This document shows, piece by piece, positions 14,386 to 53,427 of a stretch of DNA of 64,000 bases (its first letter is position 1; every line of letters begins with the position of its first letter). Origin of the DNA: Nitrospirota bacterium (lineage in GTDB: Bacteria; Nitrospirota; Nitrospiria; Nitrospirales; Nitrospiraceae); the NCBI GenBank assembly GCA_026387665.1, contig JAPLLG010000013.1:248001-312000 (forward strand), in the 5' to 3' direction. The position numbers were made by a program, and so were the translations under genes. The notes under the pieces were generated by a model. The model worked only from the letters and a program-made list of their open reading frames with translations. It had not been told where the DNA came from and did not search any database.

Positions 14386-15642
14386 ATGGCGCAAGACCAA
14401 CCAGTCAAAGCTCTCGTGATCGCGCTCACCGACGATGCGGCGGCGGCGATTTATTCGATTAATCGTCTGCAGCCCGATTCCCTCTGCTTCGTATTGCCGG
14501 CCTGGGCGAAAGCGCTGGTGGAGTCTGACGTCCAGCCGAAGATCGCACAGATGCCCAGGCGATGGGATTGGATCGTGCTGGAGGAGACGGGCGAGTTCGT
14601 CGGCTGTTATCGGGCGCTGGCGCAAGCGCTTCCGGAGATGTTGCGGACCTGGGACGTGCAGCCGGGCGAGTTGGTCGTCGATATAACCGGGGCCACTCCT
14701 GCCATGGCCGGCGCTCTGACCTTGGCCACTCTGTCTCATAGTTCGCGGATCGTCTCGCTCGTGCCGGCACGAGAGGGGCAGGAAGATGATCGGATCGATA
14801 TCGCGGGGAAGCCGTTCCTCTGGACGCAGGGGAATCCCTGGGACAAAGCGGCCTCTGTCTCGCGCCGCGAGGGTTGCGACCTGTTCAATCGGGGACTATT
14901 TGCCGCTGCGGCGAAACTGTTCCGCGAGGTCGAAGCCAGGGTGAGCGGCGGGCAGAAGCCCCTCTACCGGGCCTTTGCTGACCTGGCTGATGGCTACGAT
15001 CTGTGGGAGCGGTTTCACTACCGTCAGGCTTGGGAGAAGCTGAAGACTGCCGTGAAGGCGTTTGACATGGCGTTGGTCTGGGGTGGACCGCAAGGGCTTA
15101 AAGCGGTTCTGCCGTTGGTTAAAGCGAATGCGGGATTTTTGGAAAGACTCGTCCTCGATCCTGCTCCCGTGAAAGATCTGCAGGCGCTGGATCTGCTGGC
15201 CTATGCTGGTCGGCGACTGCATGGCACGCACGATTCGGAGGCCGCCATGGTTTCGTTGATTCGCGCGCTCGAAGCCTTCGCCCAACGGCAACTGTTCAAA
15301 CAATACACAATCAAAACCTGGGACGTGCAGCCGGAGCAATTGCCGCAGGCGCTGCAAGAAACCTGTCGGTCCTGTTGGTTGGAAGACCTCGACGGCAAGT
15401 ACAAGCTGCCTATGCAGGCGCAGTTCCGCACGCTGGCCGGGCTAGGCGATCAGATGGGCCAAGCCTTTCTCCGAGAGTGGCCAACGATGAAACCGTTGCT
15501 CGACGCAGCCAACCAGGCCATCCTCGGTCATGGCTTCGAGCCGGTCAAATCCGAGCGAGTGCAGCAGTTGTACGATGTTGTTGTCAGGCTAGCCGGGGTG
15601 AGTGAAACCTCGTTGCCAAAGTTTCCGGTGCTGAACCTCTGA
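14386..15642 (+). CDS. CARF-domain protein of the TIGR02710/Csm6-like family, without CRISPR locus
   Basis: 418 residues. The N-terminal Rossmann-like domain opens with ALVIALTDDAAAAIYSI. It has the ligand-loop pattern ELVVDITGATPAMAGAL (Asp99 to Gly102), resembling the DxTGGTKxM motif of CARF sensors that bind cyclic oligoadenylate. A helical region follows with the family block DLLAYAGRRLHGTHDSEA..IRALEAFAQRQLFKQY, as in TIGR02710 proteins annotated as CRISPR-associated. R277-x4-H282 fits the RX4-6H spacing of HEPN nucleases, but it could be chance. No cas gene, polymerase or array lies in the window. It starts at ATG 14386 without an SD. Function is inferred from family only. Confidence 0.75.
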   Translation: MAQDQPVKALVIALTDDAAAAIYSINRLQPDSLCFVLPAWAKALVESDVQPKIAQMPRRWDWIVLEETGEFVGCYRALAQALPEMLRTWDVQPGELVVDITGATPAMAGALTLATLSHSSRIVSLVPAREGQEDDRIDIAGKPFLWTQGNPWDKAASVSRREGCDLFNRGLFAAAAKLFREVEARVSGGQKPLYRAFADLADGYDLWERFHYRQAWEKLKTAVKAFDMALVWGGPQGLKAVLPLVKANAGFLERLVLDPAPVKDLQALDLLAYAGRRLHGTHDSEAAMVSLIRALEAFAQRQLFKQYTIKTWDVQPEQLPQALQETCRSCWLEDLDGKYKLPMQAQFRTLAGLGDQMGQAFLREWPTMKPLLDAANQAILGHGFEPVKSERVQQLYDVVVRLAGVSETSLPKFPVLNL

Positions 15643-50275: not shown

Positions 50276-50353
50276 GGTGGGTGTAGCTCAGTTGGTTAGA
50301 GCGCCGGATTGTGGATCCGGAGGTCGCGGGTTCGAAACCCGTCACTCACCCCA
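50276..50353 (+). tRNA. tRNA-His (GTG)
   Basis: Full cloverleaf: acceptor GTGGGTG pairing with CACTCAC, D-arm AGCTCAGTTGGTTAGAGC, anticodon loop TTGTGGA with GTG in a CCGGA/TCCGG stem, T arm GCGGGTTCGAAACCCGT. The extra 5' G (50276) pairs with C73, the His identity element, and CCA is encoded. The 3' end is duplicated at 52715-52734, marking it as an integration site. Confidence 0.97.
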
Positions 50354-50362
50354 TACCTTCTC
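50343..50362 (+). repeat. Left attachment-site repeat at tRNA-His 3' end
   Basis: CACTCACCCCATACCTTCTC, 20 bases, perfect direct repeat of 52715-52734. It covers the last 11 tRNA positions including CCA and nine bases beyond, as is typical of attL of tRNA-targeted islands. Confidence 0.7.
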
Positions 50363-50510
50363 ACGATAACTGTTTGATCTACGGGGTTGTCTCTGATTTT
50401 GCCGGGAGTAAAACCATCCGGTAATACTGACCACGGAGAGAATGCTGAACCCCGAAGGGATCTGGAATGATTGGCTTTGCAGCCAAACAGTAAACTATTG
50501 TCTGAATTTA

Positions 50511-51104
50511 TTATAACGATTTAGGCGCAGCCGTTTGTCGGACAGCAGCCAGACCTTTCCAGTCTTCCATGTCTTGATCCGGTTTTTCTGCCCGATATTT
50601 CGCATAGAGCGCAATACCTTCGGGATCTTCTAGAATATCAACTTGAACACCATTTTGGCGGAGCATTTCTTCGTTGCCTGAAGCACTTGTCACATCACCC
50701 ACGACGACCCTGTTGAACTGGCGCATATAAATCAATGTTGCACACACATCACACGGGCTTAATGTCGTAAAAATTGTCGTCAGACTGAAATCGCGGCGCC
50801 CTGCATCTCGTATCGCGGATGTTTCGCCATGATTGTAAGGGTGGTTCTCCTGTACAAGCGTGTTATGCCCTTTGCCTAAAATCTGACGGGTTTGATTGCT
50901 GATAACCACGCCACCAATCGGACAGCCGCCTTCATCATATCCCTTCTGCGCCAACAGAACCGCGACACGCATGAAGTCCTTGTCTGTCAGCTTCGTGAGA
51001 AAACCTTCCTCGACTATCTGCGGCAAGCTTTTGGTTGGAAGGTGGGCAATAGTATTCAACACCTCATCTGTTACAGGCGTATCCTGAGTAATGAACGCTT
51101 TCAT
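50511..51104 (-). CDS. Cytosine/nucleoside deaminase of the yeast Fcy1-like type
   Basis: 197 residues from ATG 51104 (GGGAG about ten bases upstream). Zinc-deaminase motifs: GYDEGGCPIGGVVI, GKGHN, HGETSAIRDAG (His and catalytic Glu) and LSPCDVCATLIYM (two Cys ligands). The HGE and SPCDxC arrangement with YDEGG matches fungal cytosine deaminase more closely than usual bacterial CodA. A longer N-terminus of about 60 residues precedes the catalytic domain. The gene is AT-rich relative to the window and sits inside the tRNA-His island. Confidence 0.85.
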   Translation of the reverse strand: MKAFITQDTPVTDEVLNTIAHLPTKSLPQIVEEGFLTKLTDKDFMRVAVLLAQKGYDEGGCPIGGVVISNQTRQILGKGHNTLVQENHPYNHGETSAIRDAGRRDFSLTTIFTTLSPCDVCATLIYMRQFNRVVVGDVTSASGNEEMLRQNGVQVDILEDPEGIALYAKYRAEKPDQDMEDWKGLAAVRQTAAPKSL

Positions 51105-51258
51105 GCCAGTTTTTCTCCCATCTTTAAAGATTAAAGTCACTTAAGCATGAACAGTTTTGTTTTTGGAAGAAAAATATGGAAAAGAAGGATTTCCTTGACG
51201 GCAACCATGCGACTAGAGACTATTCCTATAGTCCCCCGTACTAGAAAGGATGTGCACC

Positions 51259-51786
51259 ATGAGCGTTCATTTATCTGGAGCTCAAAAGGCGATGGTCGAA
51301 CTGTTCGAGCGCCATGTGCAGGCAGAGATGGCAGGTGACCTCGAAACCACGATGGCCACCATGACCGATAATCCCCATCTTAACCATGTGCCGGTAATGA
51401 CCGGGGGAGTGGGCAGTACAGGAGTTCGCGAGTTTTACCGCGACCACCTTGTTGGCAAGTTTTTCCCTCCAGATGTCACGATGGTCAACGTCTCCCGTAC
51501 CGTTGGGATCGACCAGATCGTGGAAGAATTGGTCATCGGCTTTACGCACACCACGGCTATAGACTGGTTGCTGCCAGGTGTGCCGCCAACGGGCAAGAAA
51601 GTGGAGATGGCCGTAGCTGTGATTGTGGGGTTCAAGAATGGAAAGATTTCTCACGAGCACATTTATTGGGATCAGGCCGGTGTCCTAATGCAGGTGGGGT
51701 TGCTCAATCCAACACGGTTGCCAGTCAGTGGTGTTGAAAGTGCCCGCAAGGTACTGAATCCGAAGCTGCCGGCACGCGTCATTTGA
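51259..51786 (+). CDS. SnoaL/NTF2-like protein
   Basis: 175 residues from ATG 51259 (AAAGGA eight bases upstream). NTF2-like pattern: KAMVELFERHVQAEMAGDLETTMATM, GVREFYRDHLVGKFFP, KKVEMAVAVIVGFKNGKISHEHIYWDQAGVLMQVG. Members include ester cyclases and polyketide cyclase-like proteins; substrate unknown. Island gene, transcribed away from the deaminase. Confidence 0.8.
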   Translation: MSVHLSGAQKAMVELFERHVQAEMAGDLETTMATMTDNPHLNHVPVMTGGVGSTGVREFYRDHLVGKFFPPDVTMVNVSRTVGIDQIVEELVIGFTHTTAIDWLLPGVPPTGKKVEMAVAVIVGFKNGKISHEHIYWDQAGVLMQVGLLNPTRLPVSGVESARKVLNPKLPARVI

Positions 51787-51844
51787 GGACGATTAAGTCC
51801 AGCACGACCAAGGAGGCTTAGCCGTGATCTGCCCCCCCCATAAG

Positions 51845-52175
51845 CGAGGTCGGGTAACGGCATCGACTGCCATGAGAAGGGTCAAATTTGCGGCCGGCGA
51901 GCGAAGCAAGCCGCCTCTGACCTTGCCTTCGGGAAGGAAGTCACCATCCGACTTACGGTCACGACAAGTACCAGCGCACCATTGGCGATGTGATCCTCCC
52001 CGATGGGACCAACGTCAATCATGCACTGGTCAAAGAGGGCTGGTGCTGGTGGTAGAGGAAGTATGCGCCGAGGGATACGGCGCTGGAAGGGTTAGAGAGG
52101 GATACACGGGAAACGAAGAAAGGCTTGTGGGCTGATCTCCTGCCGGTGCCTCCGTGGAGTGACGGAAGCGCAAAT
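51845..52175 (+). pseudogene. Broken thermonuclease (SNase) gene
   Basis: Fragments of an SNase in two frames. First about 51856-51960: NGIDCHEKGQICGRRAKQ then ASDLAFGKEVTIR. Then a frame change near 51960 to HDKYQRTIGDVILPDGTNVN, ALVKEGWCWW, an in-frame TAG (52053-52055) where a Tyr is expected, and KYAPRDTALEGLERDTRETK, KGLWADLLPVPPW. At least two lesions, so it is not functional. It is not derived from the intact SNase at 18.2 kb. Confidence 0.75.
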
Positions 52176-52714
52176 AGCCGATAGCGATAGATGGGAAGTT
52201 GCCAATAGGCTGTGTCCCCAAAACATGTAAGAACTCCGGCCCTCAAACCCTCGAAATTCCAACATCAAAACTAGCCCTCCGGTGTCCATAAACCAGATGA
52301 TTGATGGACGAAGGCGACATCCTGGGCTGCTGCCGGTTTGGTTGACACCAGCGTGCGTGAATCCGGCCTGTATCTCGAACGGATCATCCCATGGTAGTCC
52401 AGCTCGAATATAATGCGTGACTCACAGTTCAGTATATTCCAGTTTTGTCCTAGCATCGTTTTCCGGGGAGACGTCATAGCCCGAGAGGGAGGTAAATCGG
52501 ACTCGCCTCCCTCTCTAGCTTTCATCTCCAGTAACCTGCCTCTGCTATCGTTGCGTTGTGTTAATTGAACCCGCAGTAGGCCAAGAGCGTCCAGCGAAGA
52601 CATGGGGTCGCTACGTTCCCAGCGGTATTTATTGTGGGGCGAATGCCGCGAATACTTCATTGATTGAAAGTAAAGTCAGGCCTCGCTTCTAAAAACGTTC
52701 TGAATTCGGCCGTG
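52176..52714. other. Island stretch with no supported gene
   Basis: About 540 bases. A 129-codon minus-strand frame (52271-52660) has no SD, no recognisable domain and mixed composition, so I do not call it a gene. The remaining sequence may be relics of an older mobile element. Confidence 0.4.
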
Positions 52715-52734
52715 CACTCACCCCATACCTTCTC
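52715..52734 (+). repeat. Right attachment-site repeat
   Basis: Exact 20-base copy of 50343-50362, not part of a tRNA here. It closes an island of about 2.35 kb. Confidence 0.7.
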
Positions 52735-52849
52735 CGCGTAAGTTGATGAGCAAAGGTCTGGTCTCCCACTAAAGCCGAGATAGAACAGGAAGAGTCTAAA
52801 CGGACCGTGAGTCTCAGTTGACTCAGGAACAGAGGACTGCCTCGGACAC

Positions 52850-53221
52850 CTACTTGATATACACCACTCCCGGCAAATCCTTCAGATCTGCGTCACCCGT
52901 GACTAGTTCGGCCCCCTGGTCTTGGGCTGTCGCGTACACGATCGCATCGGCCATGGCCAAGCCGTGCAACAAGCTCACATCCGCGGCTAGCAGGGCGATC
53001 GATTCTGTTAGTTGAACGACCTGGGTTGCGCTGAGCCGTCCTGCGAACAATATCGCCGTTTCCTCCCCTCGCTCCCGTTTGATCTTCTTGTAGACCTCAT
53101 ACAACACGATGGCCGGCGTGATGAGCTGATACCGAGAAGTGAGATAGGGCGCATACTGCTCGGCGAGTGGTCCGCCCGTGAAAAAATCGATCCAGCCGCT
53201 AGAATCCAGCAAGACCTTCAC
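52850..53221 (-). CDS. vapC: PIN-domain toxin VapC
   Basis: 123 residues. PIN signatures: VLLDSSGWIDFF, the Glu in PAIVLYEVYKKI, MADAIVYATAQ and LVTGDADLKDLPGVVYI. The four acidic metal ligands are present. VapC toxins cut RNA; the target is not predictable. Overlaps the antitoxin stop by four bases. Lies 115 bases outside the island border. Confidence 0.9.
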   Translation of the reverse strand: MKVLLDSSGWIDFFTGGPLAEQYAPYLTSRYQLITPAIVLYEVYKKIKRERGEETAILFAGRLSATQVVQLTESIALLAADVSLLHGLAMADAIVYATAQDQGAELVTGDADLKDLPGVVYIK

Positions 53222-53427
53222 AATCGGTCCTTCTTCTCCCGAAGATCCGTCTTAGACATGCCCTTGAGCGCACCCTTCAACGATTTCAGAGGGACTTCTG
53301 GCACCAGGGTGATGACTCCGCCCTTCTCTACAATCTGCAAACGCTGGCTTGGAGCTAGATGGAGTTTTTCCCGCACTTCCTTGGGGATCACGATTTGGAA
53401 CTTTGGTGAAATCGTCGTCACAGCCAT
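53218..53427 (-). CDS. vapB: AbrB-type antitoxin VapB
   Basis: 69 residues from ATG 53427 (SD GGGAGG seven bases upstream). SpoVT/AbrB domain: TTISPKFQIVIPKEVREKLHL, LQIVEKGGVITLVP. C-terminal LKGALKGMSKTD is the usual toxin-binding tail. It should repress the operon with VapC. A longer frame to 53460 is unlikely. Confidence 0.9.
   Translation of the reverse strand: MAVTTISPKFQIVIPKEVREKLHLAPSQRLQIVEKGGVITLVPEVPLKSLKGALKGMSKTDLREKKDRL

Follow-up and report, generated by a model that had tools for sequence, protein, structure and literature searches.

Analysis of a 64,000-nt stretch of Nitrospirota DNA (positions 248,001 to 312,000 of contig JAPLLG010000013.1, assembly GCA_026387665.1; referred to here as the window) revealed a 2,352-bp insert behind the tRNA-His(GUG) gene that is, with high confidence, a decayed remnant of integrative islands which used the 3' end of this tRNA, most of the island DNA having been deleted and the two ends probably coming from tandem islands. 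As an object the insert is of an ordinary kind, since remnants of tRNA islands are known. Less ordinary are the several integrase types crowded on one tRNA gene, the recurrent pair of SnoaL-like and deaminase genes, and the satellite-like character of intact relatives. In the part of the literature on Nitrospira tRNA-His islands or phage satellites that was covered, no mention was found of the hotspot, of the cargo pair or of the relatives with satellite-like character.

Target site and insertion

The tRNA-His gene at the insert (Table 1) is the sole full tRNA-His match in the genome. The insert is flanked by two perfect copies of a 20-mer, CACTCACCCCATACCTTCTC. A search of the 2.64-Mb genome that tolerated as many as 3 mismatches found this 20-mer at these two places only; the dispersal of this repeat to many sites, which the first-pass annotation had raised as an objection to an island, was thus absent. 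The same annotation had described a 20-base copy of the tRNA 3' end that closes an insert of about 2.35 kb. The size and the perfect repeat at both ends stand, but the 20-mer is not purely tRNA 3' end, as only its first 11 nt belong to the tRNA and the last 9 nt lie past the CCA. The GC content of the insert was 0.512 compared to 0.586 for the window, below that of all 617 equal-sized segments tested.

Comparison of the tRNA-His site among relatives, as had been proposed, revealed an empty site in the close relative G002 and larger versions in G015 and in five Nitrospiraceae genomes. In G002, the sequence of the window's right flank is located directly behind an intact tRNA-His gene. When the insert and one repeat copy were removed in silico, the window gave an unbroken alignment with the G002 site; thus, with the joined flanks matching the G002 arrangement, the insertion was precise. 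Judging by its placement in relatives, the right flank itself probably represents the left end of an earlier tRNA-His island (Table 1). Beside the insert, a PIN-domain (VapC-like) gene (window 52850-53221) was found with an AbrB/MazE-like antitoxin gene (53218-53424), and this pair is also present in G002 and G010.

Table 1. Features of the tRNA-His site and its insert, in window coordinates.
Feature	Position	Strand	Evidence
tRNA-His(GUG), integration target, intact	50277-50353 (50276-50353 with G-1)	+	ARAGORN; G-1 and CCA read directly
Left 20-nt direct repeat copy (attL side)	50343-50362	+	
Tyrosine integrase gene, 3' stub, ~19 codons outside tRNA	50354-50410	-	tblastn and nucleotide identity with G043
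Cytosine-deaminase-like gene (yeast type), intact	50511-51104	-	Pfam PF00383; PDB 1ysd
SnoaL-like gene, intact	51259-51786	+	Pfam PF07366/PF12680
Staphylococcal-nuclease-like gene, broken	51862-52175	+	Frameshift and in-frame TAG stop read directly
Dispersed repeat, ~97 bp	52213-52309	.	Over a dozen occurrences in relatives
Fragment of dispersed, insertion-sequence-like end (putative)	52315-52381	-	
Insert right end: putative decayed C-terminal tail of second, int005-type tRNA-His integrase, with adjoining element DNA	52556-52714	-	
Right 20-nt direct repeat copy (attR side)	52715-52734	+	
Right flank, probable left end of older tRNA-His island	52735-52790	+	Sequence directly behind tRNA-His in G002, G011 and G013

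Ends of the insert

The insert had initially been described as free of an integrase. This is correct in that no intact gene is present, but the insert opens with ~55 bp that match the 3' terminus of a tyrosine integrase gene of G043 (MAG Nitrospira sp. palsa_1310), in which an intact 423-aa integrase is encoded directly behind tRNA-His. The identity of this MAG sets the window's genus close to Nitrospira. By tblastn, residues 387-423 of the G043 integrase aligned to window 50409-50299 with 86% identity, and 43 of the 47 nt directly beyond the tRNA were identical to G043, with the best of 2000 shuffles far lower. The stub peptide, FTPGKIRDNPVDQTVIVRRYGV, extends in frame into the antisense strand of the tRNA, through which the frame runs on as YGVSDGFRTRDLRIHNPAL. 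Integrases at the same site, for which a search had been suggested, were found intact in two congeners, G043 and G012 (82% identical to the G043 copy), and truncated in two further ones: at the tRNA-His of G020 the C-terminal 199 residues of a G043-type integrase remain, and that of G015 carries a broken one. An intact relative of this integrase clade was not found in the window's own genome. When genome contigs were searched with the integrase, matches were limited to G043 and one relative of 47% identity, and the viral contigs searched yielded zero relatives.

At the right end, window 52556-52730 (175 bp) shares 87% identity with the G015 island's right end, and part of it shares 73% with G045. 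The minus strand encodes WGECTAEFRTFLEARPDFTFN followed by a frameshift, and longer versions of this tail peptide are present in G015 and G045. The left end that lies behind tRNA-His in G045 belongs to a different integrase, which is 73% identical to the G005 one. When the two G045 ends were joined, one frame extended across the att core into the right-end tail. The G045 integrase gene is itself broken, as one stop lies upstream of the core in the joined frame. This frame spans the att core (L123 1031-1165 and 5667-5768), and integration would sever ~26 C-terminal residues of the integrase, with the tail FRTFLDECPDLRFNEVLAAFAQ. From these alignments, the right end of the window insert looks like the distal tail of an int005-type integrase, with the left end of G043 type. 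A stand-alone protein at the right end was considered and dropped, as the frame continues an integrase.

Cargo genes and their recurrence

Both the AT-rich deaminase and the SnoaL-like protein of the first-pass annotation were confirmed as intact genes. The deaminase gene has a GC content of 0.485 (about 48% in the window, G113 and G078 alike), and its product matched Pfam PF00383 (E 4e-19) and, among solved structures, was closest to fungal cytosine deaminase (PDB 1ysd, E 1.8e-23). Similarity to 1ysd and its relatives spans residues 34-181, and the zinc-binding HxE and PCxxC motifs are aligned and conserved, as HGE and SPCDVC in the window deaminase. By contrast, the aromatic residues that clamp the pyrimidine in yeast cytosine deaminase are not conserved in the alignment, and the substrate of the window deaminase may therefore differ from that of the yeast enzyme. 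Assignment as an anti-phage dCTP deaminase was rejected based on an NCBIfam score of 18.8 bits, compared to a cut-off of 400, over 42 residues.

Homologues of the deaminase, 71-94% identical, were detected in 5 other genomes when 235 genomes of the order were searched, a patchy distribution (6/235 at E<=1e-60); the viral contigs searched gave one match (72%), as did the plasmids (71%, Photobacterium). SnoaL-like and deaminase genes are neighbours in three other genomes (G113, G078 and G204), with SnoaL-like homologues of 77-79% identity adjoining the deaminase in G113 and G078. The two genes are divergent in the window and co-directional in G113 and G078, and in G113 the pair is located away from tRNA-His.

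G078 belongs to another family, and its deaminase is 90% identical to that of the window compared to 49% for LeuS. Behind its tRNA-His gene are tandem copies of the tRNA end, giving three ends including the tRNA itself; behind the third come a remnant of the G043-type integrase family and, after it, the SnoaL-like and deaminase genes. The difference in identity between deaminase and LeuS, together with the shared site and GC content, shows that the cargo has moved horizontally, at least in G078 alongside the G043-type integrase family. The middle unit of the G078 array (L204/L200, G078:C14:37570-56533) carries DUF2309/DabA-like and NuoL-like genes, as named from reading the sequence.

A broken nuclease gene and dispersed-repeat fragments occupy the region between the cargo and the right end. 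The gene called a broken thermonuclease indeed has a frameshift and an in-frame stop in its staphylococcal-nuclease-like segment, which gave nucleotide matches of 73-77% to other copies. Copies of the 52315-52381 fragment were found in several relatives and once in the window's own genome (C4), and we infer that it may derive from an insertion sequence.

Larger and intact islands in relatives

Both the left and the right end of the window insert are present in G015, where they enclose 8.9 kb of other cargo. This cargo (L037 3358-11312) includes Fur/Zur-like, two CobW-like and dihydroorotase-like genes and a truncated ParA-like start, all named from reading the sequence. Complete attL/attR islands with integrases of the G043-type family were identified at tRNA-His in five other Nitrospiraceae genomes (G144, G055, G099, G148 and G084). 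Their boundary copies, TTCGAAACCCGTCACTCACCCCA, are spaced 11.9-16.1 kb apart, and both G099 copies carry a single-base change (GAAGCCC). Proteins of these islands match an integrase, an excisionase-like HTH protein, DnaB helicase, a DnaD-like loader, a resolvase and a small terminase subunit; those of G099 and G084 include the integrase, HTH_17/excisionase, DnaB, DnaD-like and Terminase_2 matches. No phage structural genes were detected among the proteins scanned, which represent part of the ORFs. The complete islands (L189-L196) vary in their middle genes. Separately, a tRNA-His island of 12.6 kb in G011 (L040) carries kdp-like genes and, at the right end, a third integrase type; it lies between tRNA-His and an att copy (14804-14831 in the tRNA-oriented sequence).

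Origin of the insert

The precise insertion, the integrase stub, the intact relatives at the site, the larger versions and the cargo common to a distant family at tRNA-His were each observed directly. The integrase is reduced to a 3' stub, and the insert is therefore termed a remnant and not a functional island. This agrees with one of two origins put forward in the first-pass annotation, that of a remnant of a larger island, which is upheld by the left-end stub, the intact relatives at the same tRNA and the larger versions in relatives. We propose that an island with a G043-type tyrosine integrase, carrying the SnoaL-like and cytosine-deaminase-like genes, would have inserted at the tRNA-His 3' end, with its att site making the tRNA whole again, and that a later deletion would have removed most of this island including nearly the whole integrase gene. 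On the left, the insert would begin with the tip of this island's integrase gene; on the right, its boundary would most likely come from a second island, arranged in tandem and with an integrase of another type. The 20-bp repeat would then be the outermost att pair left after the array collapsed, and not the two ends of one element. We infer this order of events and the loss of mobility. It is on the basis of a G043-type left end and an int005-type right end that the insert is read as a collapsed tandem pair, and such a two-element origin appears reasonably likely from the sequences compared.

Both ends could instead belong to one island from which the integrase and middle were deleted, as G015 displays the same left and right ends around a single 8.9-kb stretch; however, islands with intact G043-type integrases close rightward in different sequence with the longer att core TTCGAAACCCGTCACTCACCCCA, and the right end of the window insert reads, in a different frame, like the tail of an integrase of another type, such that we consider derivation from one island unlikely, although worth retaining. 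The other origin initially put forward, a small integrase-less cassette mobilised in trans by an integrase encoded elsewhere, would fit the flanking perfect repeat, the small size with two intact cargo genes, and the own genome without an intact integrase of the G043-type clade. Two observations speak against it: remains of two integrase types lie in the insert, and in G078 the cargo is beside a same-family integrase remnant at tRNA-His. In addition, the insert includes the terminal part of an integrase gene along with many broken pieces, and neither the own genome nor the sampled relatives yielded a second copy of the 2.35-kb unit; we give mobilisation in trans little credence. Ordinary chromosomal DNA with a chance repeat has a negligible probability: the empty site in G002 refutes it, and the 20-mer occurs nowhere but at its two places.

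Since the G078 cargo is at the same tRNA-His and behind a same-type integrase remnant, the element was probably brought in by the usual integrase-driven route and decayed afterwards. An island uniting a G043-type left end, the SnoaL-deaminase cargo and an intact integrase was not found among the sampled relatives, several of which are fragmented assemblies, so that left and right ends are often on different contigs.

Significance and relation to known systems

The tRNA-His hotspot in these relatives of nitrite oxidisers gathers and erodes islands in tandem, and it is a clear instance of different bacterial families having cargo genes in common at one site, next to one integrase family. For work on satellites or islands in Nitrospirota, the intact relatives are an entry point. 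By gene content they resemble phage-inducible chromosomal islands (PMC6092414) and are candidate phage satellites of Nitrospiraceae: they are 12-16 kb with an integrase at one end, a small HTH/excisionase-like gene, replication genes and a small terminase subunit. They differ in having replication genes of DnaB/DnaD type and not pri-rep. This comparison applies to the intact relatives only and does not extend to the window remnant. A bolder proposal, which we regard as doubtful, is that the intact relatives form an undescribed, tRNA-His-specialised phage-satellite-like family of Nitrospiraceae and that the SnoaL-deaminase pair is a functional two-gene module spread by them between families; if true, the module would have a role, for example in nucleotide salvage or phage interference.

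The insert itself is best compared to tRNA-associated genomic islands with tyrosine integrases. As in these, insertion is at the tRNA 3' end with the tRNA preserved, a direct repeat is present at both boundaries (20 nt, 11 of them tRNA), and an empty site is found in a relative (G002). The base composition and cargo are foreign (low GC, a patchy deaminase, and 90% identity across families with LeuS at 49%), relatives have an integrase beside the tRNA, and islands accrete in tandem. The insert differs from such islands in that the integrase encoded within it is cut to a 3' stub of ~19 codons outside the tRNA, and in that its two ends seem to come from different islands.
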